64,000 nt of DNA from Deuterostichococcus epilithicus (Eukaryota > Chlorophyta > Trebouxiophyceae > Prasiolales > Stichococcaceae), in NCBI GenBank assembly GCA_033439295.1, contig JAVTLE010000023.1, positions 1,488,001-1,552,000 of the forward strand, given 5' to 3'. This document shows positions 7,108-55,430 of the stretch, one piece after another. A program made the position numbers and the translations under genes. The notes below the pieces were generated by a model. That model worked only from the letters and a program-made list of their open reading frames with translations, did not search any database and was not told where the DNA came from. The first letter of the stretch is position 1, and every line of letters starts with the position of its first letter.

Positions 7108-9536
7108 ATGGGCGACCTCATCGCTGGCGAGGAGGACCTGCAATCCTTCAGCAGGTGGCATCCATGTCTGAATTTGTCCGCATCAGGCAACGCTGCCGCC
7201 ATGCGCACGTCGCGCAGTGCTGGGTCGTTCTTCTTCTGCGCCACGTGGATTTTTTTTGCGCAACGGCCACTATTGGATGTTGGCGCCCTGCACCCTCTCT
7301 TTGAGCAGCTGCGTCGGTCAAGGGCTCACGCCGTCACCAATCGCCGTGCAGTGCACCGGCAGAGCAGCGTAAGGTGACGCCAGCGCTGCGCGGGGTCATC
7401 ACAGAGATCGCCACATGCGGCGTTCTCAGGTCTGCTGAAGCTGCAAAATGTCTGCTTGGCTGAACGGACGCCCTGCACGGACTGCAAGGCCACGACGCAA
7501 CGCTGGCGACTACGCTCGCCATGCAATGTGCATCGCTATACACCTTGCACGACTGCACATGCGTGCATCCCACCGGCAAGGCACACTTGGCTCAGCCTCG
7601 CAGCAAGCGTGCAGAGCGCACTCATGCTGCCCCGCAGGTACCCCTGGCCGCTGGTGCGGACGCTGATGGGCGACATCATGGAGCAGGTGCTGCTCGATTT
7701 CGAGGCGGAGGCGCATGTGGAGGTGAGGTTGATGTTCTCATTTTTTTTGGCTGCCATTCGCCATTACCCCCCGGTCACCTGTGCCCGCAGCAGCTCGCCC
7801 GAGGCTCCAGACGTTGCAGCATCGCAGCAGCTGGCCACTGTCGACTGTCCCTTCGGCGGGGGGGTCNACTTTCGATGGTGTGTTCGTTTGCTGGCACAGG
7901 CAGGGCGCGGCCGTGTAACTTGTGGAAGCGTGTGCACATGTGCAGGTGGGTCCGCCGCAGGCAGGAATGGGCCCCGAGGCGGCCAAGCAGATGCGGAGGC
8001 ACCTGGCAGCCATGCTGGCCGGCTGCACGCGCGGGCCGCCGTTCACGCTGCAGCGCTTTGCGGAGCTGCTGCTGGCTCCCAACAAGCAGTACAGCCGCTT
8101 CAACAAGCTGGTGAGAAGGTTCCTCCCTCATGGCTAGGCCCCTGATTAGACCTGCAGGCTGCTAATCAGCTACATCAGGGCCTGAAGGTGGTTGTGAGCA
8201 GTTTTGATAAATGCTATGGAGAGGAATGGTTGCTAGTTTCACAACAGCCGGTCCTCGACTCACTCGATGCGCAAGGATGCCTGCCACGGCCATGTGCACA
8301 GGCTCTGGCACTGGAGAAGCAGCTTATGGAAAATGGGTGCGAAGTCACAGCAGGCGGGCGGTCCTTGGCTTGCGACAACGCCTGCCTCGTCCGTGTATCC
8401 AGGCGCTGGCACTGGAGAAACAGCTCATGGTGGTGTCGGTGCTGCCCCCGACGCCCTCGCCGCCGCCACGCCCGCGGCTGTCGGAGCTGCCGCCAGTAAA
8501 CGAAAACCCGGCGCCGCCCGATGTGGCGGCCGTAGCGGGCGACGGGGCTGGACCCGCCACGCAAGCGGCGGCCGCCAATGGCATGCTGGCGAACGTCGGC
8601 GATGATGCGGTGCGGGTCGTCAAATGCCGGAGCAGCGACAGAGTAGTGGAACCACAAGATCTGCGGCATGACGCCCAGCCGCCACATGCTCCATGCGGGC
8701 TTGAGGAAGGTGGAAGGAGTTGACTCAACTGACGTTGCTGGTACATCCAGGCACGTGCGGTGGCGGCGGGCGCCGGTGGCGGCTTTCCGAGCACTATGCA
8801 CTCCGCGGCGGAGACGGCCTTCATCAACAGCGTCTTCTCGGACGCTGCGCCCGACACCAGCCCGCCTCGGGTGCGAGCGACTGATCGACTGATCGACTGA
8901 GTCGGTCATCGGCAGCCAGTGTTGTAGCGCAGTGTGGGACATGCATTCACGGGCACGCGGTCTGCGTCGGGCATGTGCCTCCGGCATCATCTGGAAGCGG
9001 GGTCTCCCTCATGACATCGAGCAGATGCATCCCGCTGTGCTGCACGTCAGGACGCAGCAGCGGCGGCACTGCCGCCGCAGCCGACAGTCGCAGGGCAGGC
9101 GCCTATGGCTGATCCCGTCCAGGTGGACATTGGCCCACAGCCGGCAGCCAAACATGCAGCGGTTGCGGGGACAGCTCCGGCAGCAGAGGCGGGGCTCGCC
9201 CCAATGGAGGCAGGGTCAGCTGCTGTGGCGGCGGGGCTGCTGCCCTCGGGGGCATCGGCGCCCGGGCGTGAGTCCAGGGCTGAACCGATGGACGTCGATG
9301 TGGGACAGGCGCCCGCAGAGGGCACCCCAGCGGCGGCGGTGCAGCCCACTGCAGCGGCTGAGCAGCCGGCGACGGCAGCAGAGGCGCAGCCAGCGGCAGC
9401 GGCCGCAGCAGAGCAGTCGCCAGCGGCAGCGGCCGCAACAGAGCAGCCACCAGCAGCAGCCACGCCTCCAGAGGCGCAAGCCACAGGCGGTGCAGAAGTA
9501 GCTGGTCTGAAGTCACCGACGCTGGCTCAAGCATGA
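7108..9536 (+). CDS. PP4R2: Protein phosphatase 4 regulatory subunit 2
   Basis: Exons 7108-7154, 7352-7429, 7638-7722, 7946-8110, 8403-8609, 8751-8870 and 9051-9536 join in phase. The first join is the least certain. The PP4R2 core is clear: LRGVITEIATCGVLRYPWPLVRTL, then a helix EQVLLDFEAE, then GPPFTLQRFAELLLAP and NKQYSRFNKL, followed by LALEKQLMVVS. PP4R2 binds the PP4 catalytic subunit and directs it in DNA-damage and splicing-related dephosphorylation. The C-terminal 230 residues are low-complexity Ala/Pro/Glu with an RAEPMDVD patch, where animal versions are acidic. The intron before exon 5 holds a diverged copy of that exon's start. An N base at 7867 falls inside an intron. Confidence 0.9.
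8270..8330 (+). repeat. Ghost copy of the start of PP4R2 exon 5
   Basis: CACAGGCTCTGGCACTGGAG at about 8297 repeats the true junction at 8398-8417 (exon 5 starts at 8403) with a 101-bp offset. It includes the acceptor AG and codes for ALALEKQLM, but soon diverges. It lies upstream of the used acceptor. Confidence 0.8.
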
Positions 9537-9909
9537 TTAGGTTGGTGGGCTCGGCTTGCGCTGCTTGAATGCGATCACCACCAACTTGATTTTGCAGCTA
9601 GCAGAGCATTTCCCGCAGGCCCTGGAGGGTAATTTTGCCGTGCAAAGCCAACAAGGTATCGCTGTGCACCCAGCTCCGTTACGCACCCCCACTCACTCGA
9701 GTAATCCCACCAATCGGAAGCCTCCTGTCAGACACGCTACCTGAGATCGTCAACACATGCAATCCTATACAGGTCTGCCAGCGTAGGGCAACTGTACAGT
9801 GGACAGGGGGTCTGCCAACACAGAAGCGCACACTCTGCCCTGCACAAAGTCAAGCCGTCACACTCTCCTGCCCCGCACGATTGTCGTCCCTCGCTCATTG
9901 AGATGCCGG
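9537..9909. other. Convergent 3' gap, PP4R2 / MED12
   Basis: 373 bp between two stop codons on opposite strands. I see no coding exon here. Confidence 0.5.
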
Positions 9910-12900
9910 TCAGTCTTTGCCCGCCTCCTGCGGAGCAAAGGTGAGGCCCGCCCGCGGCCGCCGCACCGCCCCGGCCAGCCAGTGCGCCGCCTGCGGCCCG
10001 CCGCCGGCGCCGCCAGGCAGCCTGTTCCGCCCCTCGTCCCGCCGCTCCCTCGCGACGCACGCCGCCGCCCGAGCCGCCTCGTGTGCCTCTGGCACTACCC
10101 AGGGGTCGAAGGCGACGGCTTCCGCGGCTGCCCAGGCGCCGGGGTCGAGTTTCGCCTTTTTGGAAGCTCCGCGCGGCGAGCGCGGCGGCTGTCGCGAGCC
10201 GCCGGGCAAGCGCTGGCCGCGCTCGCCCTGCGGGCTGGGTGGCTGGCCCCTGCCGACTTCGCCGCCGGCAGTGGTCTCGCAGATGCCAGCATCTCCGGCG
10301 GGGCGCCGCTCGGGGCCGGCCGGCGGCAGCGCCGGCCCGAGCTGCGGCGCCACCGGCAGGCACGTCTGCAGCCGCAAGCCCGCCCTCGCAGGCAGCTCCG
10401 CAACGGCGGCGTCCAGCTGCAGGCGGCTGCAGCCGGCAAACTGCACCACCTCCCGCAACTTGGTCTGCACCCAGCGACACAGCAACGACTCCATGGGATC
10501 CGTCTCTCTGGAGTGTGCAGTTTCAAATGGATGTTCGTACTGACAGGTTTTGGTCCAATCTACTCTGATCTGCGTATTCAAGCCATTCGTCTGCGTCTTC
10601 ATGCAGGCCATGCCAAATACATGCGGCTGGCATGATCAGGCCAGCGTATCAACCTGTAGTGCCGTCTGATGGCAGCCCCGCAGGACATGGTCCGCTAATA
10701 TCCGATCAATCCAAGTATTCCCGCTCGTCTGCAGCGTCCAATGAGCGCAGTCACCTGGTTACCCTTCAGCCACGCCGGCCAGCTGCCCGGCAGCAGGCCA
10801 CCCAGCAGCGACAGCAGCCGCTGCGGCAGCGGCTCCCCGGCGGCGGCAGCGGCGGCGGCCACGGCGGCGCCTTCCGGGCCGCCGCCCTCCGCCAACGGGT
10901 CTGCACTTGCCCAGGGCTGCAGCGCCAGCCTGCAGCACACCAAAGCCGTGCTTGTGACTTGGTCTCAGAGCCACGTGGTGCAACTGCTGGGCACATACAA
11001 CCCTGCAGAGCCCCCAAGGCAGTGTACACGAGGACCACATTCAAAGGCAGAGCAGTGCCGTGTGGTGCTCGACGACGACGAGGCGCACCTGAGGAGGGCC
11101 GGCACGAGATTGGCCCGCAGGTTTCGTGCCGCAGACGGCTCCTTGTCGGCATAGACCAGCGGCAGCAGCGGCGACAGCGCGCCCAGCCGCAGCCAACTCG
11201 CCGCCTGCAGGCCGGCCGCTGTGAACAGCGGGGCCTTCCCCTCCTGCCATGTCGGTTTGCGCGACGCATCCCTGTCGCCGCCGCCGCCAACGCCGGGCGG
11301 GAACCCGCCGGATTTTGGGTTTGGGCTGCCGGCGTCCGACGGCGACGCGTAAGACATCTGCTCAAGCTGCATGACGAGCGCCTCCGCAAACTGCAGGATG
11401 CCGCGCAGCACGAGATTGCTTCAAGCTGCACTCACGCGCGAGCTATGAGCATCTCAGGGGTTCAGAGTGCTGCGCACGAGTGGCACGCACACATGCATTA
11501 AGCACCGAGGCCGGCCAGGCTGATGGCTACATTTTCTAGCTGCGCGGATTGCTAGCCTGCTTGCGCACCTCACGCTGGCGGGCCGGCGTGCTGCAAGCGA
11601 GGCTTGCAAGTGCGGCGTCCACAAACCCGGTCTCCAGCGAGAATGGCTGGCGATGCGCCGCGGCGGCTGCGGCGGTCCTAATGCCGCCCGGCAGCGCCTC
11701 CCACAGCGGCCGGCTGCCGGTGGTGCCCACGCCAAAGCCGGCCTGCACGACATCCGCATCAGACACGTCAAGACACGTCTAGAGAAGGTGTCCAATTCAT
11801 CCTTCGCTTCCAGCAGCCGATGCCGGTTGGCTCAGCGTGATCCACATCACCTTGCGAGCTGGCCTCCAGACCCGCCTGGCGTTCAGTGGGCAGGGGGCCT
11901 GTGCCAGAGGACCTCGTCATGAACGAAGAGTTGACATCGCTGAATGAAGGAAGGTCCAGAACCCGACCACCCAGTTGCGCCCAGTGCGCTCACAGCTCTC
12001 ATGCACCGAGCAAGCTCCCCTGCCGATATGGCGAGGTGCTGGCCTCTGAGCCAAGGCAGCCGGCACAACCTTCCGGCGCCCAGACTTTTGTACGTTGGCA
12101 AGCACAATCTGATACCTCAGGCCACACTCGTAAGGCATTGCTTATGTTTGGCAACAGCTGCAGGCGATTGGTGGGCAATCTCTCTGCCATTCCAAATTCC
12201 AGACTTGCGGGTGTCGATTTTGTCGGCTCTCAAGGCCCCACCAGCAGACAACCACCCGTATTGACTTTTCAAGCGGCCTCCCAATGGAGTACACGGCAGG
12301 AATCATGCGTGTCTTGGGTCCCAGATATGGAAACACACAGCTTGGACCCTCCTGCAGCGCCCAGAATTGCGGGCTGAGCAGGTGCTGGCGCAGGGTACCA
12401 GAGGTGCATAAACCCTGAACACTAAACCCTGAACACAAACCCTGAACCCACCTGCAGCGCCCAGAACTGCAGGCTGAGCAGGTGCTGGCCCAGGCCGCGG
12501 CCGAGCGCCCAGGAGAACCGTGCCGCCACCGGCGCGATGCCCGGCCTTGCCGCCACCTCCTCCAGCACCTGCACATTGTTGTAGAGCATTACGCATTATT
12601 GCTAGGCCAGAATTGCAAGGCCAATCTCCGTCCTGTCTCCAGCCAGTCTCCCCTCAGACAGCATCCTCGCAGAGGGCTTGCCTTCTGAAATGGTTCCAGC
12701 AGGCAGGCACAGATGGTCGACCCCGCAAGAGGTTCAGGCATGCCTACCATTGGTTTGAAGGAGCCGCCAGCTCGGCGGCAGGAGATAAAACGCTGCAGCG
12801 TCTGCGACTTGCATGGGACTGTGCAGATTGGCGAGGTAGCCTGCGTTCTGACACCCTCGTCTACGCACTCATTTGCATCTCAATTGCCTCATAGCACCCT

Positions 12901-15900
12901 CTGCAAGGAGTGGGTGCTACGAGGTTATTCAGACCAAAAGTGTACACAGACGAGAGTGTCAGACGGCTTGCCAATGTGCGGAGCCTGCAAGCACAGCCGG
13001 GGCGGCTCGACTGACTGACCTGGGAAACGAATTGCTTCTCCACCTCTGCGGCGCCGCCCGTCGCGGCTGCGGCGGCGCCCGCGGCCGCCGCCATCGCTTT
13101 GTCGGGCAGCCTCAGGCGCTGCAGGTGCTCCGAATACACCTGCACAAGAGCGTTTCCGGTGATCAGCTGTGCAATTGAGGCATGGCGCAGCTCAAGCCAA
13201 AAATTATGGCAAGGAGCAGGAGAAAGGCACCGGCACGCCGAGCCATGTCTGTTTCTGATGCAGCCACCGGAAGCAATGGCCCGCTGTTGCTCGGAACACA
13301 CGCATGACTCCTCAATGCCAGGCAACGAAGGAAATGCGCGTTGCTGCGGAGTGTTGTGCGGCACGAGCGCCCTGGTCTGTCGGCCTGACAATGGTGCAAG
13401 CGGGCTTTAGGGTTTAAACCCTGGACCCTAAACTTCCGTGCCTGTTCGTCCAGCAGCAGGCGGCAGCACAGGCGCATGGCCGCGGCGTTGGCGGGCGTCA
13501 GCGCCGCCAGCAGCCGCGCCCCCTCCTGGCGCAGCCCCGACGCTGCCGCGGCCGGCGACGGCGCCTGGCCGGCAACCGGCAGGTGGCTGCCGCCCAGTAG
13601 CGCAGCCACCAGCAGCCTGTGTGCAGATAACACTTGCAGTCGCGATTGCGCATGTTGACACAGGCTGTTGTGGTATCGTGATCCCTACCAAAAGCACATC
13701 GTGAATGTGACTGTATGCCAGGCAGGGTGCCGCCCGTGTGCCGGCAGTGCATCAAGCGTGGCGCCGGCCCGGAGTGGCAGCAAAGGCCCACCGCGCAGGG
13801 ATGCCGGCTGGCGGCCGGCCGCCGGGCGCACCCGGCGGGCAGCGGTACCAAGGGGACCCGGCGGCATTGAGTTTCTCGTACAGCGCCTGCGGCTGGCGCA
13901 GCAGGACGGCGGCCAGCGGCGCGTGGCCCCAGAGCGGCGCCCAAGGGTCTACCGCCGCCGCCGCCGCTTGGCCGGGTGCCGGCGCTGGGGCCGGTGCCGC
14001 CAGCGGTGGCGAAGGAGCCAAGCAGAGCGCCGATGCCGCATGGGCCGACTCCAGCGCCGCAACCGCAGCCACGAAGGGCATCTGCCGCTGCGCCGCCATG
14101 AGCGCAGCCGCCTCACCTGCACAGGGTTCACACGATGGTCGTCTCCTCCTGTGCTACCTAAGTAGTGACAGGACGGCTACATTCACTTGACCTGGCCGGC
14201 AGCCGGCAGAACGACACATCCAGCATTGTTTGGCTCTGCTGCGTGACGACTTGGCCGATGCTGCAGCAGCTTGCCTGCGGGGATGTGGCGGCCGGGGCGG
14301 CCCAGCAGGAGCACCACCCAGGGGCCGCAGCCGCCGGCCGCTGCGAGAGCGGCGTCCAGCCGTACGAGGCCGCCCGCTATGCAGCCGACCAGCAGCGCGC
14401 CCACCTGCAGACAGGGTTCTGGAGGGATGACTTGATTGACACACCTTCGATGTGCAGCAGCGCCTTGAATGCGTCCAGCCTCTGCTCCTGCGCTGAGCTT
14501 GATTGGCCGCATACCAGCCTCCAAGCAACATGCCGCACTGCTAACAACCGGATTACTCGCGTGAGAACTTCAGTGCGATCCTTGGACGGCCTAGCACACA
14601 GAGCGAGGTCAGCACCGTCAGGCCGCGCAAGCAGGGTTGGACGAAACCCCGCTGCTGCATGATGCGAAAACTTGGATACGCTGTGTGTGTGACGCGCCTG
14701 CGGCCGTAGGTCCAGCCGCTGCGCCGCCTCCGGCTGGTACTTCGCGCGACAGAAGGCGACTATCGCCTTTTGCATCGGGGAGGCATCGCCGCCTGCCGCA
14801 ACGCCGCCGCCTGCCGCCGCCGGCGCCAGCAGCGCCCCCAGGTGGCTCAGCACACCCACATGCAGCTGAAGCGGTGCCGCTGCCGCCGCTGCGTCTGCCT
14901 GTGCTGCTGCAGCTGCAGCAGCATCGTCAGCTGCCGCGCTGGCGGCATTGCCGCCGGCCGCTGCCGCGGCGTCGCCGCTGGTGGCAATGACGCGGCGTGC
15001 GGCATGCGAGTAGCTCTGGAACAGGGTCTCAACCAAAGCCGCGTGGCAGGCGCCGCCCCCAGGAGCGGCGTCGCCGCCGCCGATGCTCTGAGCCCACGCG
15101 TGCAGCTTGCGCGCCACCTGCCCAGCAGGATGATATTTTTGGTAATGTGTTGGCTCCGCCTCTCGTAGGTGTACTGACACTTGCAGTCGACCTCTCAGTG
15201 ACGAGTGCAGGGACAATCTGGAGCACCTGCATATGAAAAGCTCAAGCCGGGTGCCGTGCCCACAAGGCGCACCCAGGCCGCATCGGCAAAAGAAAACACA
15301 AATATAACCCAAAAACAAAACCCACCTGCCAGGCCGCGCCGGGCGGGGCCGGGTCCTCGTGCAGTGCTGCGCACGCCTCGGAGAGCGGTCGCCGCCAGGC
15401 GAGCGGCGANNGCGGCGGTGGCGCCAGCGCCGCGGCGGACGGCAGCGCCGGCAGCGCCCGTGACGCGGACGCCAGCCGCAGCGCCAGCCAGTGCGACGGG
15501 TGCTGCTGGCAGGCCGCGCTCAGCCACGCCTGCACGTCTTGCCGCTCCCTGTACGACTGGTTGTGATACTTTAGGTTCTGAACATGGAGCTTTGAAGATG
15601 AGGCCCAACCTCATATTCAACCCCTATGCCTCCTCTATGGCAGCAGCACCAGGAGGTAACAACACACCTGTTTATTCGGCAAGGGTAGAATCCTCCCAGG
15701 AATTGGACAGCCCAGAGTGTGGCTTCGTAGGGCTGGAGCAAGAAGGGTGACAAGCAGCCCGGTGCGCCCGAGGCTGCCCATGAGGTCGACGCTGGATGGT
15801 GTGTGTGCACCTCCTGGCGTCTGGAGACTGCCATGAGACTACAACTACAAGTTCGGGCTTACGAGGTTGGGAACCCTCAATCGGGACTTACGCGCCTAAG

Positions 15901-18030
15901 ACTGCTCACGCGGTCGATGGCATAGGCAGTCCTCGATGTGAGAGTTGACAGACACATTTTTTGCAGGATGACCAGTCTCTAAAGACACAAGGTCAGTTCA
16001 AACCACACACCTGAGGCTGCCGACGAGGTCGATGGCGTAGGCGCACAGCGCGGCCGCAAAGCTGCCCGGCTGCAGGGGCCTGGCGGTGGCCCAGGCCGCC
16101 TGTGTCGCGGCGCCCAGCGCGGCCGTCGCCAGGTCGGCGGCGGCGATCGCGTCCTGACGCCCCCGCAGGCCCGCCAGCAGCACGCCGGCGGTCGGGTCCG
16201 GCGGCACGGCTGTGCGCATCACAACACCCCGGATGGCGTCGGGGGTTGCACGAGGACTGTGAAGCAGAGGGAAGTCAAGCCCAGCCTTCGGTTGCACACC
16301 CACAGCTGGTAGCTCCCTGCCGAAAGGTGACGTGAGATGCAAGCGCCAGGCGTGCGCCTGCCCCAGCCCTGCACCGCCCTTGGCGGCTCCTATCTCTGAT
16401 TGCATGAGTTGCCAAGAGTAAGAGTCATCAGCTGGCTGACGCAGTCGACTGCAGCAACCAGTCCTCGATTCGCAAGGCACCTGGTTGTCAAGTGCAAATC
16501 AGGGCAGTCGTTGGGGGTTCATCACTATCGCCAGACCTGTCGGGTTGCCGCCGCTGCCGGCGGTGCGCGCGGACAATGCCTCACCCACCAGCAGCTGTGG
16601 CCCATTCGTTTGTTTCAATGCTGGGAATTTGTTGATAAAAACACAGCATGAATTACCCGTCAGGTCGCCGCCGACACCGGCGGTGCGTGAGGACAGCGCC
16701 TCGCCAACCAGCAGCTGCGGCAGCAGGGCCAGCAGCGCTGCCGCCGCTTTGTCGCTGCAGCCGGCTGCGTCCAGGGCTGCCAGCAGGCCGCTAATTGCGC
16801 CGGCACCGGCGGAAAAGGCAGTCGCCGGCAGTGCGGCCGCCAGGCGCCGGCTGAGACACAGCTTCTCCCAGGGCCTGCAGTGAAAAGTATTCAGTCGTGT
16901 AACCACCTTCGCTAAGCCAGGCAGCACGTGGACGGACGACAGAGCCCGTGGCCCTCCAAGGGCGACACATCGCCAGCAGGCAAGCTCCAGGCAGCCTCGA
17001 GCTGCTGACACAATTGACCATAACATGAAACTGGGTGTGCCATCACCTCAGACCGCAGACAGCCTCGAGCACTTCGGGCAGCGTGTTCAGCTGTGGCGCC
17101 GCGGGCCCAGCACGGCTGGCCTCCCTCCCGCTCGAGCCGCCGTCAATCTCCAGCCGCAGCCCCAGGATGGCGTCCGCCGCCCGCTGCACAGCGCGCAGGC
17201 GGTGCCGCCGGCCACACGCCGCAGCGCCGCCCAGCCCCGGCTGAGGCTGCCCGTCTGACTGTGCCTCCGCCGCTGCAGCGTCTGCCGGACCCTCGTCCGC
17301 TGCCTTGCGCTTCGCCGGCAGCAGTGGCACCGGCGGCCGCCGTGCTGCCTTGTGCGCACTGCTGCCGAGGCCGCCGAGGCACACCGAGCGGTCTGTTGCG
17401 TAGCTGCGCCGGCCAGCGCTCCATGGCGCGCCGGCGGCTGGCGGGTCGGCCGGCTGCCCCAGGGTGGGCAGCCGCAGCTGCGGGTGCAGGTGCTGCACCA
17501 CCTCCCTATAGTGACCACAGTCATCTCACATGCTAGTCTATCTGAGTGGTCGATCGCGGAGGCCAGAGGGATGTGGGCAGGCTACGAGGCATATTAAGAT
17601 GCGATCGCCGTATTTCGACATCTTGAGGACGACAACCACATGCCGCCTGGCAGCATGCTGCTGAAACATCTCCGCAATCTTCTTAAGCGCCAGCATGAAG
17701 ATAGTTGCAGACCTGTGCAGGCGTGCCGAGGCGGTCGCGGCGGCTCCGGTGCCGGGCGCCGACTGCATCGCGCCCGCCGCGATGCAGGACAGAAGATACG
17801 ATGCCGGACACAGTAGCCCAGCCTCCGCGATGCGAACCAGCAGCTCGCCGGCGACAATGCTGTCACTGAAGCCGCCGTCGCCGCCATGGCTGCCGCTTCC
17901 AGTCGCCTCCCAGTCCAGCCAGGCCACGATGGCGCTGCATCAACAGGAGAACTTGGTTTTTGCTAGGTGTGACGACGCGGTGCTCAGGAGGTGCTGAAAG
18001 AAGGGCGGTGCAAGTGCTTTTTCTTTAGTT

Positions 18031-18084
<54 letters not shown>

Positions 18085-21000
18085 ACACGAAAAGGAAGGT
18101 GCAGGCAAAACAAATCTGTAGTGGCAGCACTTCACCTCTGCAGCGGCGTGGCGGAGACGCCATCGCTGCGTGCAGCCGCCGCCGCCAGCTTGGTCAGCAG
18201 CGTGACGGCAAACACTGGCCGCAGGCGCTCGCCACACCCTGCAGGCAAGACTGCAGCCACTCGAGGTTGTTGCGCCCAGAACCCCAGGGCTGCTGCCTGT
18301 CGTGGACACCTTGCTGTCGACACCTTGCTCACAGTGCTCAAGGCAAGGCAGCCCGCCTGCAAAGCCGGCTGCGGTTGAGCGCCCCTCCTCGGCTGCACGC
18401 AGCGCCGCGGCAACGCTCACCAGCGGCCTCGCAGCCCCCCAGTGGCACACCAGCCGGACCATCTCCCCCTGCAGCAGGTTTTGAGGTTTATGGTTTGCAG
18501 CAGGACAGCTTCATGCGGTGCCGTGCAGCAGCAGTGCAACACATTCTTTCAAATCTTGTTATACAGGCGACAAAGCAGCTGCGGGTGCGCCGCACCACCA
18601 CAGTCGCGGACTGCACAGTGTGTCCCCGGCATGAGGACAGGTCAGCTGCCGAGCGGCCCACCGGCAGCTGCGCGGGCGGCAGGCCGCGAGACGCACACGC
18701 ACACAGCGCTTCCAGCGCCGCTGCGTGGCAGCAGGTGGGCATTGCGGCGTCCAGCGCCGCCAGCGCTTCAGCCTCGCTGTACGACAGCACCCTGTTCACA
18801 GCAGTCAGGAAGTCGGATTGTGTTCCTGGCCGGGTTTGACTGTGATCAGATGAGGTCGCAGGCTGCTTCATCGGCTCAGTGGGTCCTCCTCGTGGCACGC
18901 CAGCACCCTGCCACGACCAGTCTGGAGGGAGCCACACAAGGCTGCCTCGGCTGCTGGAACAAGCTGGTGCATCGCCGCGTGAGCGCCTTGCCAGCACAGC
19001 CCCGCACGGGCGCTGCTGATGCTGCAGCTGTGCGACTTGCTGGAACGCAGCAAGCGAATTCGCCTGCCTCTGCATCGGACGTGTGCCAAGCTGTGACTGC
19101 CGTGTAGATGGGTCTGAGGCGCTGCTCGCTTGTATGTCTCAGGCACAGCTGCGCAGCGAGCGGTGCCAGATGCATCGCAGCCATTGCAATCACCTTGCCG
19201 TGACAACCGAGGCCAGAGTGGCAATGCGGTCCTGCACGCCAGTGACCGCATCTGCCGCCGGCTCGGAGTGGGCGTCCGCTGCGGCGCCCAGCGGCGGGAT
19301 CGGCGCAGCGGCGCCTGGGGGCACGTTCAGGCTGGGCAGCTGCAGCGCCGCCAACGGCGCCGCATTCAGCAGCGCTTCTAGCAGCTGCCTCAGCGCCTGC
19401 CGTGCACACGACGAGCCTCTGTCATGGTTTGACACGGCTTGTATGCTCAGTCGACCTCGGCACCGCTGGAGTGCGGCAAAGGTGCAGCAGGTGTGCACGC
19501 AGACTCGGCAGCTGGTAGGTGAATTGTGCAGACCTGCTGCAGAGGCTCTGCCACTGGCGCGTGCGCGCCGGCAGTCGCCAGGTGCTGCAGACGTGCCGAG
19601 ACGGCGTTGATGACGCGCCGCACGTGCGCCGTCGACAGTGACGCATCCTGTCATCGCAAATAGCACCTCTTGCGGACAGAACGTTCGTGTTTCAGCCATG
19701 ACAGCTGTACAAGTATGCAGCTCCGCAGGCAGATCCGGTCCCTGACAGTCGCTGCACCGCTGCCACTGCTTCATGCAAGGGCATTCCATAGGCACGCATC
19801 AGGACGACTCATGCTCGAAGGCAGGGGCTCCATGGACGCTGCCAGGTTCAGAGGTGCATCCATCGCCTGATGGTCCGGTTTCCAGGTCGATGGAGGGCAC
19901 AGGAGCCAGCTGGAGCTGGCCGCCACGCACCCACAGGCAGGCCTGCAGCAGCGGCAGCACGGCGGCGGCGGCCGCGTGGCTGCCGTCCGCGCCGGCGTCC
20001 GCCACCCGCGGCAGTGCCCACGCCAGCAGGTCTTCTACGGACAGCAGGCCCTCCGCCGCGCTGGCGCCCGCCAGCCGCACCAGGTACCGCCATGTCCCCG
20101 CCGGCTTCCTGTTGCACTGCCGACGCTCGAGTCTGCACTCTTGGTGCTCGAGACGCTGCATTGGTAGCGTGCTGACACAGGCAGCAGGCTGATCACTGCT
20201 GGTGGTTGCTGCTGCCTCCTTGCATGGAGGCATGGGACGTATGGATCCTGCGGTGTCCTGCTGTTTGCACTTGATGACAATGCATCCCTGCAGGCAACTT
20301 TATCTGCAGAGCAACAGCCGCACCTGCCAAGCAAAGGCTCCAGGCCGATCTGCAGCCAGCCACTGTCACCGCCCGTCCCGGCCTCAGCAGGCTGCGCGAC
20401 GGCCGCAGCAGCGGCGCCGGGCTGCTGCAAGCCCCTCGCCGCGCCCGCCGCCGCGGATGGGTGACGGCTGCCTGGCGCCGTCAGGACGCTGCCCATGAAG
20501 TCCGTCAAGTGCTGCGTCCACTCCCTGGCCCGCGCCTCGGGGTTGCTCCTGCCACACGAGTGTTTTTGTCGCAACTAGCGCACCTCTTCTCGTGCCTTTG
20601 GCACTGCTCATCAAGCGGGAGGTGACAGCTGGGAAGTGATGAATAAAACCGCAACCAGCAAACGAACACCGTATGCAGACATCTCGAGCACATCCTCCTC
20701 TTGCCTGCGACCACAACGACCCGAAATCTAGTACCTACTCTGGCCTCATTGCACACCCCAGTGCACCTGTTGCGGCTGAAGTACACGAGGCGCGCGAACC
20801 ACAGGGCACGCGCCGGCGGCAGGCGGTTTGCCAGAAAGGCCTCGAACATGGTGCGCCGGAAGAAGCCGTGCGGCGCCCAACCACCCTTGAGCAGGCTGTC
20901 CAGCGGAGCGCTGCCCGCCAGCTCCTGTCAGGCAGCAGTACAGCGGCACATATTGGGAGGCGCGATCATGGTGCGCAGGAAGTGGCCCCACGCCACCCAG

Positions 21001-22179
21001 GAGGCCGTCCAGCGGCGTGCTGCCCGCCAGCTCCTGTCGCGGACAAAGGTAGCAGTAGTTTCGGAGCCGTATATCCATAGCCGAGCAGCGTTCGGACTCC
21101 AGTTCTCCAGTTTCTAGTCAGCGTGTCTCAGGAGCTGCCGGCAGCCAGATGCTCGGGAGAGCCGGGCTAGAGCCCGGCACGGGCCTCCTGCCCCTGCTAG
21201 GTGGCTGGTTGTGCAGGACACGGGACGGGATGACAAGTTAACAATGAGGGTCTCTGCACACAGCTCAGCGGCTTTACCGTAGCTGGGTCTGGCTGGGAGA
21301 CGGATCAGAGCCCCCACACAGGCACATCGAGTTGCTGCCGAGGTGCGCACCCGCATCCAGGCGGCCCTGGGCTCCTCGCCCACAGTGCGCAGCTCCGGCA
21401 TGAGCTTGGCGCCGGCAGCGGCGCCAGCAACGGCGGGCCCCACCAGCGGCCCCCCATACACGTGGCCCGCCCGCCGCCTGCGGCCGCGCACTCGCTGCAC
21501 CGCCCGCAGCCGCCGCCAGATGGTCTGCCCGCCACATCACATCTGACAAGTGTGAGGACAGGGCCATCGTATCCACCCCCGACCCTGGTCTCCAAGGTGA
21601 GGCTGCCGGGACCTTGAAACGAAGGAAGCAATCGCTGCGCGCTGCTGCGCATTGTGGAGAGCTGCGCAAACTGCAGAGACCTAGCCATGTGGCACACAGT
21701 GGGACGCATAACCCAGGATCCTGGCACTGCTTGCTCGCTTGCCCTTGCACTGACCTGCCGCACCGCCTCGAGGTCTCCGGGCGCCCAGCCTGCCATGGCC
21801 GGCAGCAGCGTGAGCTTGGCCTCATCCGCGTCCTGGATGCCAATGTCCGCATAACTCACTGTGTGACCCTTCTGCAGCGCCTGCGGGCTCAGGCTCAGCT
21901 CCGGACACTCCTGCGTGGAACGGGGCTTGGGGTCGGACGATGAGCTGGAACCGTCATTTGTGCTGTGACGGGACAGAAGAAATCCCAGGTTGCAGCATGA
22001 CAGCAGCAGCCCGGCAGTCAACTCGGCGTATGCAGGCAAGGAGGTGTCGATTGCGGGGACGAGAAAGCAGTATGCGCGGTGCCGCAGAAGCCCACCGGGG
22101 TCACAGGGAAGTAGCCCGGCGGTCCCAGTTTGTCACTGAGGGGGGTGCGATCGCAGCGGGGCAGCTGGTACGGCTGCAT
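9910..22179 (-). CDS. MED12: Mediator of RNA polymerase II transcription subunit 12
   Basis: Minus-strand gene of about 12 kb. The first four exons are firm and in phase: 22096-22179 (ATG), 21755-21910, 21351-21524 and 20767-20924. They encode MQPYQLPRCDRTPLSDKLGP and PGYFP, matching plant MED12 (PYKLKC...LGPPDFHP), then RRRAGHVYGGPLVGP (plant KRKAGQVYG), and FEAFLANRLPPARALWFARL, the MED12 block around RATWFIKVTYL. Downstream exons (near 20.5, 20.0, 19.6, 19.3, 18.8, 18.3, 17.8, 17.3, 16.8, 16.2, 15.4, 15.0, 14.3, 13.9, 13.5, 13.1, 12.5, 11.7, 11.3 and 10.5 kb) are Ala/Leu-rich helices, including LLCPASYLLSCIAAGAM. Their exact edges are unresolved. MED12 belongs to the CDK8 kinase module that gates Mediator. 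The stop at 9910 is likely but not certain. Assembly gaps (NN) sit at 15410-15411. Confidence 0.85.
12351..12395 (-). repeat. Ghost copy of a MED12 exon end
   Basis: Read on the minus strand, the exon ends ...LQFWALQ at 12451 with donor CTGCAG|GTGGGT. A second copy (HLLSPQFWALQ, CTGCAG|GAGGGT) follows exactly 100 bp downstream, where the GT has become GA. Confidence 0.8.
12407..12450. repeat. Telomere-like tract in a MED12 intron
   Basis: Three imperfect units of the form TAAACCCTGAACAC lie side by side between the two exon copies. They are a degenerate CCCTAAA array. Confidence 0.7.
13407..13432. repeat. Inverted telomere-like motif
   Basis: TTTAGGGTTTAAACCCTGGA followed by CCCTAAAC: the two telomere orientations meet head to head inside MED12. 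Confidence 0.7.
15766..15930 (-). repeat. Two decayed copies of a MED12 exon end
   Basis: The exon ending in GCCTACGCCATCGACCTCGT (minus strand, 16022-16041) is followed by weaker echoes around 15912 and 15784, at spacings of about 115 and 128 bp. Identity is patchy and the assignment is by eye. Confidence 0.45.
16539..16600 (-). repeat. Ghost copy of a MED12 exon end (LLVGEAL)
   Basis: The exon part PQLLVGEALSSRTAGVGG (about 16667-16720) is repeated 120 bp downstream as PQLLVGEALSARTAGSGG. The second copy keeps an AG|GT. The spacing is a multiple of three and the frame stays open across both copies. Confidence 0.8.
18033..18082. repeat. CAG/CTG microsatellite
   Basis: About 16 perfect AGC units lie in what appears to be a MED12 intron, so the tract is not read as polyglutamine. 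Confidence 0.9.
20958..21035 (-). repeat. Ghost copy of the start of MED12 exon 4
   Basis: Exon 4 starts CAG|GAGCTGGCGGGCAGC at 20924. The same string with its own acceptor occurs 109 bp earlier in the transcript. The ghost shares ELAGS and PLD but has lost bases, so the MED12 frame is broken. Confidence 0.8.
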
Positions 22180-31498: not shown

Positions 31499-34400
31499 GA
31501 AATCATCTAGATTGGCAACGACTTTGGATGGGCCAGATCATGACATCTGAGGTCAGGTGGAAGAGGTTAGCCAGGAGCGTGAGGGAAACTTGCACCTTCT
31601 TGGAGCGCTCCCGGCTGACGATGGAGCGCTCGCGCGGGAACACGTTCAGCGTCTTCACCAGGCTCGACATCGCGGCATTGATGGCCGACACCTGCGCTTC
31701 GCATGCAGCAGGAGGTCAGCTCCATGCGCGTGCTGTGTGAGTGCAGCGCGTGCCGACTGCACCTCGATGTCGCATCCATCACCAGCCTCGGGACACCTGT
31801 TTCCCACTGTGCGTCTGCTTCCTGTGGCGCCACCTCTGCTAGACTATGCAGGTGAGTGTGCAATGAGCATGTACACTGGATCGATCAGCTGGCATGCAAA
31901 GCTCCAAATCGATGGATCGCACTCTCAACCAGTTTCCGTGTCCTGTGTGCATCGGTCTGCATGGTGGACTGCATGCAGCGCATCCGCCAACTTCGAACAG
32001 AGGCTCAAAACCCTGTGCATGTCAATGCATCTCACCCCTTACCTGCAGCAGGCCCAGGCGGTCCTGGATGGTGGACTGCGTGCGGCGCATGCGCCAGAAG
32101 ATGGAGCCGAAGATGAGCGCCGAGGAAATGTTGGTGCCAGCCCGTGCGACGTTGGTCGCCCGGTCGCGCGTCGCCTGCCGCCAGGACCGTGCCAGCAACA
32201 GCCTGCGGCGGCGGCAGCAGCGTATGTCAGAGTGGGCTCCAAGGCGGCTGCACGCACCAGCTGCAGGCGGCCACGCGCACAGCTTCGGTGGCAAGGCAGA
32301 GAGCCTCGGCAGCAGCTGGCCTGGGCAGCTTCTGCATTGACTCACGTCTCTCAAGCCACTTGCCCCCAGCCGCGCGAGCATGACCCCACAGGCGTACAAC
32401 ACACTTCAACCGGACGAGACCGTGCTGCATTTTCAACCTCCTGCCGGCAATGCCCCGAGCAAGCCTTGGAAGCAGACTGGATGCATGCCTGAACTGGCGG
32501 CGCCAGTTGGAGGGCGGCTCGGCGTCCGCAATGCTTGCTTGGTCGAGCGCTGACGCCTCATCCGCCGCCGCCCCCTCGTCTGCTTCCTGCTGCTGCTCGC
32601 CCTGCTTCTGCCGGAAAGCCTCCACCAGCTGCCTGACGCGCAGCCTGCACCGCGCAGATGAGGGGGAGGACAGAGCTCAGCACGGGGGTCTTTCGTGAGG
32701 CGGGATTCCTGCTTCTGCCGGACCGCCTCCCCCAGCTGCCTGGCCTGCCTGCGGCACCTGTAACAGGAGGGAAACCCACAGCGCAGCGCCTGCTGCTGGC
32801 TGCCGAGCGACTCCTGCGGCGCCTGATTCACGGCTCGCAATGCCTGCCATGATGTGCAATTGAACGACAGCTGCAAGCTTTGAGAACTTCGCTTCGCTGG
32901 CACGTCACGTGGTTTCAGGCGGGCAACACAGACTCAGCCAAGCTTGCAGGTGTATTGGCCGCAATGCAAAGCGAATCCGGGGTCCCTCGAGCCACAAAGT
33001 AGCAGCAGCGATGGCAGCAGCTTGGTGGTCGACCGTCTGCTGGTGCCCGCATGCTGCAGCGGCGCACAGCCACATGCCCGCACCCACCTGATCTGCATCT
33101 CGCCTCGCGTCTGATCTAGGATGCAGTGTGGACCAAATACCCTGACGATATTCTGCACCCACCTCCTTCAGCTGCGCACAGTCATAAAGCAGCCCTATCA
33201 TCCCACCTGGTTTCCAGCTCGGCCTCGGGGCTGGAGGGGTCGATAGAAATGAGGTCGGCATAGAATTCCGCTGGGTTGTAGTTTTTGGGGCAGGGGTGGC
33301 CCAGGCCCTCGAAGTGCGCCAGCGCCTTGCCCGCCGGGCCCGCATACACCTCACGCCCCTCGCTCAGCTGCGGTGCATTCCAAGCAGCAGTTCGAGACCG
33401 CAGGTGGCATCGCATAAGTCGAATGCACCGACACCATCCTGGCAAGACCTGCTGTCGGCAAGGCCAGACTGTGCCTGATGCCTGCTGCTGAGCACACGGC
33501 AGCGTTCGACAGCGCTTGGGTGCCCTGACACGGCAGCATGGCCATTGCAGAGTACACGCTGCAGAGGGCAGGTGCATGATGGTGCGGAAAAGCCTCGAAC
33601 AGGAGAGCCCTGCTGCAGCCAAAGGAGGACTGCACAATTAATTGGTGGTTCGCTTCAAAGGCAACTCAGCAGCAGATCATCCCGGGGCCTCGTCGCAGAC
33701 GATTTGGCGTGGCTTCAGGAGCATCCTGCAGGGGCTTAGAGCATTTCAGGGCCGCACCAGCAGCAGGTCGTCGAACATCTCGAAGATTGAGGAGCGCGGT
33801 TGGTGGATGCTGCACACCACCGTCTTGCCCTCACCTGCCAAATCCTTCAGCGTCTGCATGACCTGATGACGCACACACAGAGTGAGTGTTACACAGAGTG
33901 TTGCTTATCACAAGGTCATGCTTGAAGGTATGAACGACCACGAGGCTGCAACTTCCGTGCATCTGCCATGACGGCATTCGTATTAGCCACGCCTTGGGCA
34001 CGCCTCCGTGGTGCGCCGCGCTGTGCTGAGGGCCAGAGGCGAACACATCATTCCCCATTGCAATAAAGTTTGTCAGCGGCCACGCTGGCGACTCACAAAA
34101 CTTATGTGCTCTCGCTCGGGAGGCTCACCCGCTGCGCCTGGAAGCTGTCGAGGCCCGACGTTGGCTCGTCGGCAAACACCAGGTTGGGCGAAGCGATGAG
34201 CTCACAGCCAATTGACAGCCGCTTCTTCTCGCCGCCTGTGACATGGCAGTACTCATATCTTGTTGCACCCCGCTCATGGTGGCACGTGAGTGGTGACTGC
34301 ACGCTTTGGTGCTGCAGCCATAGTGCAGAGAGCTCAGTAGATCACATGCCGCACTGGCACCGGCGCATCTGGTGCACGCAGGCGCAAGGCGCGTCAACAA

Positions 34401-42297: not shown

Positions 42298-44962
42298 GCG
42301 CAGCAGTCGGGGGAGGGCGGCTCAGAGTCGGACTTCGAGCGACGGCTGACGGCGCTGGCGGAGCGGACTCCGGCGCAGCGCAAGGCCGATGCTGAGCAAG
42401 TGCAGCAGGACATCCTGGCTATGGAGCCGCAGTTCGGCCGGGCGCCCGATTCGCCGCAGCAGCAGGCGCCGCGGCCCGCAGCAGACGAGTCCGAGGACGA
42501 TAAGCCCTCGTGGCTGGTTCGGGTGCGCGTGCTCATTCAATCTGCAACTGCTGTAGCACGACTCTCATCGGTGTGACCACCAACAGTGTGACCATCGGGT
42601 TCGAGGAGGCAGGGCATGCAGGCGCTCGTGGCTGCCTCCCATGGCGATGCTGCCTGCCAGTATAGTGCACAGCACCTACTCGACACCTGACCGGGAGTCC
42701 CCCTGCTTGGTGCTGCCTGTGGCTCATGCAGTGTTGCCGCCGCAGGAGCCGGCCGGCGCGGGCGCCTTGTTGCAGGTTGCGCCCGGTGCAGCCTCCAGTT
42801 CAGGGTGAACATCAGTGCATTGTTGCCGCCGCAGGGAGCGGCGGGCGCGGGCGCACTGCTGCTGGTCGGCATCTTCCTCGTCTCCAGCATACGCGGCGAC
42901 TTCGGGGATGGCGGCGGCCAGCCTGCTGGCAGCGCGGCGCCACAGCAGCTGGGCGAGGAGCAGCGCAAGGAGCTGCGGGCGCAGGCAGAGCGCTTCGACG
43001 AGCAGCTGGCCGCGGCGCCCGACAACATCGAAGCCCTGGAGGTGAGCAGCGACATAAGACCTATGAATGCTCACCAGATTCGCTCGGCCAGTCAGCTGTT
43101 CAGACGCTGACGGAGCGATCCGACAGCAGCTGGGTGCAGCGCTCGGCAGTATGGAGGCCCTGGGCTTACTGGGGACGCGGGATCTCCTGGTGTTTCTGCC
43201 GTCCAGGAGTTGGTGCAGGGTGGGGGAGTGCCACATGCCATGCAGGCGGAGTGCTTTGACGGGCAACTAACCATGGCGCCTGACAGCGTGGGCCCCCGCC
43301 CGAGGGCGCTCCATGCGCATGCTGCCATCCCCAACTCCGGCAGATCGGGCTGAGATTCCTGACCTGCTTCTCTTTGTATGCAGGGCGCGGCGGTGTCCTA
43401 CGCAAGGCTGGGTGACCTGAAGAAGGCGTCTGGCCTCCTGACGCAACTGTCAATGGCGAAACCGGACGATGCTGAGGTGCGACCCCTGCCGCCACTGCTT
43501 TGTATGTAGGACCCAGTTTTTCAAGGTGTGGCTGCCGCGGCTGCAAATGTGGCCGCCTCGTGTCAGTCCGCAACAATGGATGCCGCTGCTGATCGGCTCA
43601 TGAATTTCTCAGTCATTTTATCTGTCGTCGAACACTCGTTTTTGATCAGCTACATCCAGTGACGCCTCTTGACTGTGCGCACAGGTATGGCGCCTGCTGG
43701 CGGAGACGCAGTCTGCGCAGGGCGACTTCAAGGCCTCGTCAGCAGCATACGAGACGGCAAACGTGAAGGCTGGCGGCGACAACATCGACCTGCTGTCCTC
43801 GTGGACGGACGCGTTGCTTGCCGATGGCAAACAGGAAAAGGTGGGTTCTGCAAATTTTTCGCAGTTGGCCCACCCCTGGGGCGCTCGACGGCAGTCAGCA
43901 ACATGGGCTTACTGTCTTACGAGCATCACAGCAGGAGGTCGCCTTGCCGGCCGCTGATGACTCCCGCTTGGTACTGCATACAAATTCAAGAAGACATGTG
44001 TGGGCGAGTTTGCACGGACCGCCGCAGACAGTAAAGCATGTGTGCCAGGCATTCGTGCACCTGCTGAATCCTGCCCTGGAGTGGCCAGCAAAGGCGCTCG
44101 CCTAGGTGCAGCACGACATGGCACGCCAAAGCAAGGTTCTCAATTGCAGTGGCCACATCTGCCAGGTTGCGCTGGGGCAGCTAGCGGGAGCGCCGCAGCG
44201 GGGGTTCCATGGACCATCCAGGACCCAGCACCTGGCGTCGGCAGGTCTTTTCGGCTGCCTTTTAGAGTGATTCATTATGCTCTTTTGGACCTGAGTTGTA
44301 TGTCCTACGCAGGCGGTGGAGGTTGTGAAGGCGGCTCAGGACAAGGCGTCGGCGGAGCTGGCGGTCGACTTGGACCTGCTGCTGGGCCGGGTGTACTCGC
44401 AGTGGCGGGGCCACAACGGAGATGCCCTTGCGCTCTACGACCGCCTCGCAGAGGTGCGGGTCGACAACACGGAAGTGGCCTCGGAAAAAGGAGACCCGAT
44501 GCGGCGCGGTATCCTGCCAGAGGCGGTGTGATACAAAGCGCGAGGCAATGCCTCCCCATTCGGAGCTTACACCTGCAGTGTAGCGTGCGCTGACGCACAC
44601 GATTGCTCCAAAATGTAACAAAGGCTCCCCCAAGGAAGCTCGCTGGTCTGACTCGGGTGGCCTGTTCCCGCGCAGAGCAACCCTGACGACTTCCGGGCGC
44701 CACTCGCCAAGGGGCTGATTCTGAAGAGGTGATTTGACATGTGGATGGGTGTGTTTGTGCTCTGTGTATTTACCCCACACAGATGCGGTCGCTGTTCCGT
44801 GTAGGGTACGCCTGCATTGTCAATGCGAGTCACGCCTGTTTGTGCCTGCGCTGCAGTGAGGGGCGGAAGGGCGATGCCGCGCGCTACTTCATGAAAGCAC
44901 GGTACCTTGCGCCGTCGTCTGCGCGGCAGGCAGTCGACGCACTTGTGAGCAGGCAGCAGTGA
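42298..44962 (+). CDS. TPR protein, probably plastid-targeted (SLOW GREEN 1-like)
   Basis: Exons 42298-42522, 42835-43041, 43384-43476, 43685-43840, 44313-44453, 44676-44728 and 44857-44962 (TGA) join in phase to 327 codons; the N-terminus is missing. An acidic, Gln/Pro-rich segment is followed by one membrane span (GALLLVGIFLVSS). TPR-type helical pairs come next: EEQRKELRAQAERFDEQL with PDNIEALE, YARLGDLKKASGLLTQL, WRLLAETQSAQGDFKASSAA, LGRVYSQWRGHNGDALALYD and NPDDFRAPLAKGLIL. The end, GDAARYFMKARYLAP, resembles plant SG1, a chloroplast membrane TPR protein needed for greening. TPR repeats bind partner proteins. Plastid location is inferred from that likeness, since the transit peptide is not resolved. 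Confidence 0.72.
42731..42775 (+). repeat. Ghost copy of the start of the TPR gene's membrane exon
   Basis: GTTGCCGCCGCAGG plus GCCGGCGCGGGCGC at 42733 repeats the true acceptor and exon start (42822-42850) 89 bp upstream. The ghost no longer encodes a membrane span. Confidence 0.82.
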
Positions 44963-45993: not shown

Positions 45994-46033
<40 letters not shown>

Positions 46034-55000: not shown

Positions 55001-55430
55001 GAGCTGTGGAACGCGCGGTGGCCGGATGCGGCGCGCCGCGGCCCCGGCAAGCGCGCCCTAGCCTGGAAGTGAGCACCCAACCTCTGCTCCCCCTGCTCTC
55101 GCCAGCTCTTGCCCAAACCCTGTTCCCCATGCTCCGCTGCCAGCTCTCGCTTTCAAACACAAGGCAATGAACAACAGTCATGCCGACACCTTGATTGAGA
55201 GACGCAATCATTGCCCACCCTTCTACACCCCTGACGGCGGTCACGCCCTTGAAACTTGCAAAGCGCCCATGTCACAGCAGCGGCGCGCCAATGACTTGTC
55301 TCTGAATGTGCTTGCGCCCTCCACATTCTGTAGCAGCGGCGCGCCGATGACCGTGAACGCCTACTTCTCTGTGGACAAGGGCCTCATGCAGCAGGCGGTG
55401 CGTCAGGCCTGCGACCGCCGCTTGGCATAG
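45691..55430 (+). CDS. Large low-complexity protein with an eIF4E-binding-type motif
   Basis: I treat 45691 (MWPQHPGGGQGRGFVPFPQE) to 55430 as one gene of many exons. Supported edges include 47801, 48048-48637, start 48822, 49925-50001 and 50169-50255. At the 3' end 54096-54211, 54396-54502, 54991-55068 and 55334-55430 are fully phase-matched. The sequence is Gln/Pro then Ala/Pro/Glu-rich. RYDSGQLLDIL fits the YxxxxL-phi eIF4E-binding consensus and resembles the start of 4E-T proteins; PPGFEE and PPGFEP follow. The C-terminus is ordered and basic (FLAPIHRKKIRHRQARN, HEEGDPISIPQVAEELRLTR). A 4E-T-like role in mRNA repression is inference. The frame shifts near 46690 and 49260 and perhaps between 45750 and 45950. 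It could be two genes. Confidence 0.5.
45994..46033 (+). repeat. CAG tract coding polyglutamine
   Basis: Thirteen CAG codons in the first exon of the low-complexity gene, in frame. Confidence 0.92.
46034..46170 (+). repeat. In-frame tandem coding repeat
   Basis: RPLHHSSCEGGIFTAPQQQ is followed directly by WPLHRGNCEGGTFTAPRQQ: one ~66-bp unit duplicated within the exon. Confidence 0.9.
48317..48605 (+). repeat. Degenerate coding repeats RVxVxLL...EP
   Basis: Three units share RV-x-(V/L)-x-L followed by EP and an Ala run: ARVSVTLLCAEP, ARVSVELEVVEP and ERVKLTLLRTEP. A fourth, PRVCVALHVHA, closes the series. Confidence 0.75.
55274..55297 (+). repeat. Ghost copy of a terminal exon start
   Basis: CAGCAGCGGCGCGCCAATGA occurs 56 bp upstream of the used TAG|CAGCGGCGCGCCGATGA at 55331. 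This is the shortest offset in the set. Confidence 0.75.

Follow-up and report, generated by a model that had tools for sequence, protein, structure and literature searches.

The window, by which we mean the whole 64,000-nucleotide stretch of DNA analysed here, carries genes with Pfam support for PPP4R2, Med12, an ABC transporter with an ABC2 membrane domain, and TPR repeats, in keeping with the identities (PP4R2, MED12, ABCG7-type and TPR) given in the original prediction. The host genome (46.8 Mb) is eukaryotic, gene-rich and GC-rich. Beside some exon edges of these genes, the adjacent intron holds a second copy of the edge, which we call a ghost. For instance, an exon start of the PPP4R2 gene on the forward strand has a ghost at 8279..8329, offset by 101 bp from the real copy (8380-8430, acceptor 8403), and here the intron flank is similar too. 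In the Med12 gene, on the reverse strand, ghosts of exon ends lie at 12332..12394 (real copy 12432-12494, donor edge 12452, offset 100), 15895..15927 (real copy 16010-16042, offset 115) and 16535..16601 (real copy 16655-16721, donor edge 16657, offset 120), and a ghost of an exon start lies at 20999..21038 (real copy 20890-20929, offset 109). The spacer of the first of these contains a telomere-like repeat, and the last is labelled by the gene model as a mini-exon (20992-21033).

The ABC transporter gene, also on the reverse strand, has ghosts of exon ends at 29047..29087 (real copy 29161-29201, donor edge 29163, offset 114), 29713..29751 (real copy 29837-29875, donor edge 29845, offset 124), 31030..31081 (real copy 31172-31222, donor edge 31176, offset 141/142) and 31957..31989 (real copy 32064-32096, offset 107, the match starting 21 bp into the exon), together with ghosts of exon starts at 32708..32742 (real copy 32601-32635, offset 107) and 35255..35302 (real copy 35153-35200, offset 102), the latter belonging to the Walker A exon and sharing an open frame with it. 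The ghost at 29713..29751 is the youngest-looking: it is 97% identical and comprises only 31 exon and about 8 intron bases. On the forward strand, the TPR-containing gene has an exon-start ghost at 42727..42777 (real copy 42816-42866, acceptor 42835, offset 89) and an exon-end ghost at 43105..43163 (real copy 42980-43039, donor 43042, offset 124/125), and a weak exon-start ghost of 20 bp (32.8 bits) lies at 55276..55295 (real copy 55332-55351, acceptor 55337, offset 56). All twelve offsets originally listed are thus present, eleven by self-blastn (56, 89, 100, 101, 102, 106 for a 107, 107, 114, 120, 124, and 142 for 141) and that of 109 by ungapped scan; self-blastn adds two absent from that list, 115 bp (15895/16010) and 125 bp (42980/43105), each of which coincides with a predicted splice edge.

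The abundance of ghosts was assessed in 308 kb, consisting of the window and 30 other stretches of the same 46.8-Mb genome; stretches L001-L008 were fetched around a donor-like pattern, so this is not a random sample. Gene structure came from a 13-state HMM trained on the same sequences that it annotates, and the exon edges are predictions from sequence alone. This model sometimes called ghosts with AG and GT exons, which shifts pairs from the intron-exon to the exon-exon class. For the count of 28 independent edges we dropped the low-complexity stretch L018, exons under 70 bp and edges at most 160 bp from a better one. L028, one intergenic repeat tract that supplied 10 of the 47 pairs in the ungapped scan, was omitted from this count, from the 42 independent pairs and from the coding/non-coding comparison, for which 205,277 of 298,136 bases are non-coding in the gene model.

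An intronic second copy was found at 51 of 1069 exon edges (ungapped score at least 16), against about 1.0 expected when exon edges from other genes were compared with the same introns, so that the excess over chance anticipated in the original prediction is borne out. A gapped scan at score 19, whose rows include some ghosts called exons by the gene model, gave 66 of 1209 edges against 2.7 expected, with 6 for reversed and 1 for reverse-complemented targets. Exon-edge copies in introns are therefore confirmed as real, and they are not confined to the window: at the ungapped score of at least 16 it holds 12 among 227 edges and the remaining stretches 39 among 842, while eight stretches of at least 10 kb, one being the omitted L028, hold no counted pair. 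At 80-150 bp and at least 40 bits there are 33 direct pairs and no inverted pair, a single weaker inverted pair (34-40 bits) lying at 80-90 bp, and in L001 and L010 whole units with homologous spacers form head-to-tail arrays. A few pairs are indeed of low complexity (L018) or are in-frame repeats within exons (46040-46164), as would be expected if GC-rich exons resembled one another by chance or encoded repetitive protein, but the excess over the null, the missing inverted pairs and the narrow offsets refute this explanation and leave it practically no probability.

The offsets are as tightly clustered as originally proposed. Across the 28 independent edges, 18 of them acceptors and 10 donors, they average 112.2 bp with an SD of 12.5 bp; over all edges scoring at least 16 they comprise 62, 33 values from 82 to 141, 174, 177, further values of 212-289, and 360. 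They also show no bias towards multiples of three, the remainders 0, 1 and 2 occurring 12, 18 and 12 times in 42 pairs, again as proposed. The match starts within 9 bp of the junction at 22 of the 28 edges, as expected of a unit that crosses the junction, and AG or GT is kept in register in 11 of the 28 ghosts, indicating that some splice-site sequence was copied along. The recognisable copy is mostly a 27-65 bp exon edge, the remaining spacer of 43-94 bp (offset minus exon reach, 28 edges) being unrelated; offset and exon reach correlate at 0.44. The host introns have a median length of 446 bp (19 cases).

The original prediction read these features as simple tandem duplication of about 100 bp that strikes everywhere and is visible only where coding sequence makes it recognisable. 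Part of this reading stands: the copies are direct, short-range, narrow in length and placed at junctions, whole-unit arrays exist, and the ghosts are free of coding constraint (see below). The idea that the same events inside introns go unnoticed does not stand, as self-alignment is able to detect them and only 4 of the 42 pairs lie in non-coding sequence. In 38 of the 42 a copy is more than 30% coding; 2000 random placements gave 22.1 ± 3.2 such pairs and never more than 32. At a weaker threshold, 8 of 14 intron-only pairs lie at 80-140 bp; since these share the offsets of the ghosts, the mutation may be a general one.

The broader reading, in which all sequence is tandemly duplicated in this way, is not supported. 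A tandem duplication of the whole unit would repeat its intron half too, and many intron-only repeats would be expected. Intron flank homology is detectable in only 8 of 33 rows, some events appearing twice among these because ghosts were miscalled as exons (L012); three of the eight are from L018, leaving 5 of 30 without it, and an earlier test gave 10 of 45. Among events with exon identity of at least 0.90, only 2 of 10 have intron homology. In the 97% identical event it ends after about 8 bases, and in a 93% event the intron flank has no significant homology. When whole-unit duplication was simulated (with its own null threshold of 12.4, an assumed 0.15 indels per substitution and uniform ages to 0.35), intron homology appeared in 69% of detected cases if introns evolved at twice the rate of the ghost and in 43% at four times, rising to 87% and 65% for exon identity of at least 0.9. 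The same simulation with uniform ages expects about 30% of events at identities of at least 0.95, against 3 of 33 rows, two of these on cores of 23 and 21 bp. Comparing ghost with ghost in the two arrays, the intron part has diverged only approximately 1.7-2.6 times as far as the exon part, one L010 unit being cut within its exon part with 16 bp left.

Alternatively, the copying might be limited to the exon and tied to exons or junctions, so that an exon edge of about 30-65 bp, extending at most a few bases beyond the splice site, is placed 43-94 bp into the intron or duplicated around a foreign filler of that length. The 25 of 33 rows whose intron flank lacks significant homology, the 97% and 93% identical events among them, point this way, as do the coding excess among the 42 pairs and the mean intron-side identity, which is 0.47 beside the junction but 0.24-0.35 more than 25 bp away from it, against a null of 0.25-0.26. 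Against it, the spacer of the youngest event matches only itself genome-wide (in a search that ignores frequent words), local templates for the spacer are indicated in 4 of 28 cases where about 2 are expected, the 308 kb hold no large dispersed intron family, and the AG or GT kept in register suggests that splice-site sequence was partly included. We know of no mechanism that recognises a splice junction in DNA, which also counts against this possibility, and we regard it as doubtful. More specifically, we think it unlikely that an exon- or junction-recognising mutational process, acting via chromatin, transcription, R-loops or splicing intermediates, recurrently copies a 30-65 bp exon edge about 112 bp into the adjacent intron, without the intervening intron, at a few percent of edges.

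Several sources for the spacer and for the ghost itself were considered and rejected. Locally templated filler reached p <=0.05 in the 4 of 28 cases just mentioned (12 comparisons each), one of which is the L001 array, in a test weakened by the comparison of some window rows with their own neighbours. Copying of the spacer or outer intron from elsewhere in the genome was set aside on the self-match of the youngest event, though diverged sources may exist. Ghost flanks compared with the neighbouring exon gave a mean score of 10.3 against a null of 7.0; the 16 rows scoring at least 11 are attributed to ghosts called exons, neighbours overlapping the flank, low complexity and repeated genes, so that an mRNA source is unsupported.

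The substitutions speak to whether ghosts are used. By codon position, copies differ at 45, 38 and 68 of 362, 358 and 359 sites, which fits an unconstrained ghost beside a constrained real copy, for which about 1:1:2 is expected; a looser, over-extended alignment gave 97, 106 and 131. These ratios argue against the suggestion that ghosts are alternative or tandem mini-exons kept by protein constraint while only the introns diverged. The gene model does call several ghosts 30-47-bp exons flanked by AG and GT, and some pairs differ solely at third positions (e.g., 3 of 3 differences at 8403). The offsets free of triplet bias and the splice dinucleotide retained in a minority of ghosts weigh against such use, and a relative's ORF, P0055, read by eye, does not show the Med12 ghost of 16535..16601 in frame. 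We consider used exons improbable. Gene conversion could also have kept ghosts similar, but in Med12 the evidence speaks against it: at two residues this ghost still agrees with P0055 where the real exon does not.

A relative may carry a ghost of its own. In ORF P0003, RFAELLLAPNK recurs as RFVELLLALGK 38 residues (114 bp) on, beyond the homologous exon end (p 0.01 in 200 shuffles; one of 13 ORFs of relatives tested, P0011 giving 0.02 with another repeat). Neither self-blastn nor the gapped scan found a ghost at the corresponding donor edge of the window, 8110, and a different ghost in the relative is thus indicated, from this one ORF.

Another possibility is that a ghost marks a new intron, which arose either when an exon piece bearing AGGT was tandemly duplicated or when an introner inserted and duplicated its target site. 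The unit sizes are similar to short introns, the intron at L023 9463-9543 (80 bp) repeats its donor context at the acceptor, and such repeats are in slight excess at weaker scores (5 vs 1.2 at score 10 and 21 vs 11.6 at score 8, of 609). At scores of at least 12, the repeat occurs in just 1 of 609 introns, and the offset differs from the length of the host introns. An introner family was rejected in its own right: of 643 introns compared with the 308 kb, 9 had a dispersed hit, mostly nearby gene copies and 25-bp matches, one being telomere-like. Intron gain is mostly refuted as the origin of ghosts and seems to us very improbable. Between L014 and L013 there is also an unexplained inverted match of 48 bp (90%).

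What the sequence shows is the repeats, the way they are oriented, how long they are, that they sit at predicted exon edges, and that their substitutions are free of coding constraint. We consider the best explanation to be that stretches spanning splice junctions are recurrently duplicated in place and that the intronic half then disappears or decays quickly; we give it an even chance of being correct. A frequent local mutation would produce direct head-to-tail copies of units of about 112 bp. Where the unit straddles a splice junction and the working splice site stays with the distal copy, the mRNA would presumably be unchanged; the inner exon-edge copy would be stranded in the intron and decay as non-coding sequence. 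The intronic half would be lost or diverge faster than the exonic half through quick intron turnover or, alternatively, because selection removes the second branch point and splice signals, which would compete with the originals. Birth as a whole unit, a DNA-repair step (e.g., fill-in at staggered breaks, then end joining) and whatever sets the narrow length are parts of this model that we infer.

With one copy held by selection and the other decaying, each pair dates a duplication, so exon edges could serve as a clock. Should the same rate and narrow length apply to the whole genome, the 28 independent edges in 308 kb would become about 4,000, and short duplications would be a main force by which its introns lengthen and acquire decoy splice sites. 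Both the size of 112 ± 12.5 bp and the restriction of homology to the exon offer quantitative clues to a repair- or transcription-linked mechanism.

Our searches of the open-licence literature listed no account of this ghost-edge signature. Introner elements are likewise short repeated intronic sequences and are known from algae; no large dispersed family of introns occurs in the 308 kb (9 of 643 introns with a dispersed hit). Novel introns in Drosophila are attributed to intron sliding or tandem duplication (PMC2891723); there too splice-site-bearing exon sequence is tandemly duplicated, but the result is new intron positions, whereas the predicted positions here are unchanged. Fill-in at staggered breaks with end joining, involving CST and Pol alpha-primase, produces small tandem duplications that are likewise direct, short and independent of sequence, and is a plausible source; the material available from that study concerns short insertions (<100 bp) in the human genome and describes no link to exon edges or mode near 112 bp (PMC8355091). 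The closest parallel is the potato RdRp gene, in which a direct tandem duplication crosses an intron-exon boundary, taking in the last part (3') of an intron with the first part (5') of the exon that follows, with splice signals supplied by the parental copy, and a second one of 83 bp lies within an intron (Ma, Lan and Niu 2016, PMC4974935). There the duplication created a new intron and altered the mRNA, and both halves are homologous, whereas the copies described here leave the predicted transcript as it was, occur at a few percent of edges, fall in a narrow size range and mostly lack a recognisable intron half. Junction-crossing tandem duplication is thus already known from potato; as far as the literature we consulted extends, its frequency here, its narrow length and its exon-limited homology appear to be new.

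The original prediction held that tandem duplications of about 100 bp at splice junctions leave a second, diverged copy of the exon edge, here termed a ghost, in the neighbouring intron. Such copies are real and also occur outside the window: among exons of at least 60 bp, with ungapped matches scoring at least 16 within 400 bp to the intron side, 51 of 1069 edges had a ghost (12/227 in the window, 39/842 outside) as compared to 1.0 expected when these introns are searched with exon edges drawn at random. These counts cover 308,136 bases of the 46.8-Mb, 21-contig genome (the window, 17 stretches of 10 kb, five further stretches and eight 3-kb loci), in which gene structure was predicted by a 13-state hidden Markov model that included splice sites and had been trained on the surveyed sequences themselves. 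The model called 31% of the sequence coding, with 664 donors (CAG/GTGCG), 671 acceptors (TGCAG/G) and median sizes of 215 bp for introns and 113 bp for exons. Spliced window proteins matched PPP4R2, Med12, ABC_tran with ABC2_membrane, VPS9 and TPR in Pfam, one of six pieces having no Pfam match, and we regard the predicted gene models as usable.

The offsets between real copy and ghost were 62 bp, 33 values at 82-141 bp, 174 and 177 bp, then 212-289 and 360 bp, a series that looks like one unit and its multiples. At the unit offset, self-alignment scored against exon edges bore out the claimed clustering, with an excess of direct repeats at 80-150 bp and a mean of 112.2 bp (SD 12.5) for 28 independent edges (18 acceptors, 10 donors). 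The match began at most 9 bp from the junction in 22 of these and reached 27-65 bp into the exon in all 28, and offset minus exon reach was 43-94 bp. When the window was aligned to itself by blastn, the strongest direct repeats lay nearly all at offsets of 89-142 bp, and the pairs listed at 15-2000 bp included no inverted ones other than palindromes; ungapped alignment views showed exon-like segments duplicated adjoining splice sites. Throughout the surveyed bases, direct pairs of at least 40 bits numbered 33 at 80-150 bp, 1 at 30-80, 2 at 150-200 and 12 at 200-300, with no inverted pairs of that strength at 15-300 bp. Self-blastn also revealed long imperfect palindromes at window 12847-12963 and 26316-26415, which span 118 and 103 alignment columns and are roughly 75% self-complementary. 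Other repeats included an in-frame 69-bp (23-residue) tandem duplication inside a predicted exon adjoining CAG repeats (window 46017-46164), a stretch present in two diverged copies of 77-81% identity (56700-57300 and 59250-59834), within either a single predicted gene or a merged pair, and an inverted 48-bp match of 90% identity linking sequence called as intron (L014 9207-9254) to another contig (L013 9073-9120; L numbers denote other stretches of this genome, with local coordinates).

Ghost and real copy differed at 45 of 362 first, 38 of 358 second and 68 of 359 third codon positions compared; a non-coding ghost and a constrained exon are expected to differ at about 1:1:2, and two constrained exons far more at third positions. 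The ghost AG or GT was retained in register in 11 of 28 cases versus 1 in 16 by chance, so some splice-site sequence was copied along, and many of the ghosts' splice sites are dead. In the Med12 gene, the in-frame ghost SARTAGSGGNPTG retains two residues altered in the real exon SSRTAGVGGDLTG, as judged against a relative's ORF, P0055 (SSRTAGSGGDPTG), which shows no ghost in frame. A relative's PPP4R2 ORF, P0003, has its own ghost 114 bp beyond the exon end (p 0.01; one among 13 ORFs tested), and these two ORFs suggest that ghosts form repeatedly and not in a single lineage only.

If the whole unit of about 112 bp was duplicated, the intron half should be repeated as well. The simple reading is supported in part: the copies are direct, narrow in length and placed at splice junctions, but intron-flank homology was significant in just 8 of 33 ghost-edge comparisons by a gapped test (three of the eight in low-complexity L018). 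Tandem duplications simulated with the observed offsets would retain it in 69% of cases if introns change twice as fast as the ghost, and still in 43% if they change four times as fast. The intron/exon divergence ratio was about 1.7-2.6 in two arrays with both halves alignable. Of ten distinct events with exon identity of at least 0.90, two pass the flank test (L001, L021). Arrays of several ghost exon starts with homologous spacers lie in single introns at L010 7000-7520 and L001 2000-2620 (minus strand). The youngest-looking ghost, in the ABC transporter gene (29713-29751 versus 29837-29875, 97% identity across 39 bp), has no recognisable similarity outside those 39 bp, and a genome search with its spacer matched only the spacer itself. 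Another ghost's spacer holds intronic telomere-like repeats (units such as TAAACCCTGAACAC; window 12409-12447), with a 25-bp, 96% match at L025 9803-9827.

The claim that duplication is general and recognisable only where coding was not supported: just 4 of the 42 independent pairs offset by 40-200 bp were non-coding, and 38 had a copy more than 30% coding, whereas pairs placed at random gave 22.1 +/- 3.2 (at most 32 in 2000 trials). Left out of these counts was an intergenic tract whose degenerate direct repeats show several periods (L028 8295-8860). Intron-only pairs are too few for a simple whole-unit reading. At a lower threshold some of them share the ghost offsets (8/14 at 80-140 bp), so a general mutation behind the ghosts is possible. 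Alternatively, copying might be restricted to exon edges, the main rival, which accounts for both the absent intron flanks and the rarity of intron-only pairs but is without a mechanism.

Our preferred account is that local duplications arise again and again across splice junctions. Correct splicing would be maintained by the distal copy, and the proximal exon edge would be left stranded in the intron and then decay. The intronic half would have to diverge more quickly than at a neutral rate; one possible reason is that, of two identical branch-point and splice regions in competition, one is soon deleted or mutated. That spacers are never shorter than 43 bp would agree with a required distance between rival sites. 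The DNA step may be end joining after fill-in at staggered breaks, which produces direct duplications (PMC8355091). The literature consulted offers no explanation for the mode at 112 bp.

Introner elements were tested in the surveyed bases and rejected, as was AGGT intron gain, with just one candidate among 609 introns at a score of at least 12 (L023 9463-9543, a predicted 80-bp intron whose donor context recurs at the acceptor, 24 bp across the junction). Tandem duplication is discussed as an origin of new introns in Drosophila (PMC2891723). The listings of an open-licence literature search did not contain a frequent, narrow-length, exon-edge-limited signature. For a potato gene, PMC4974935 describes a tandem duplication that spans an intron-exon boundary, and a second one of 83 bp in an intron. 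Junction-crossing tandem duplication is already known, and what looks new in the ghosts is how often they occur, their narrow length and the confinement of similarity to exon sequence.
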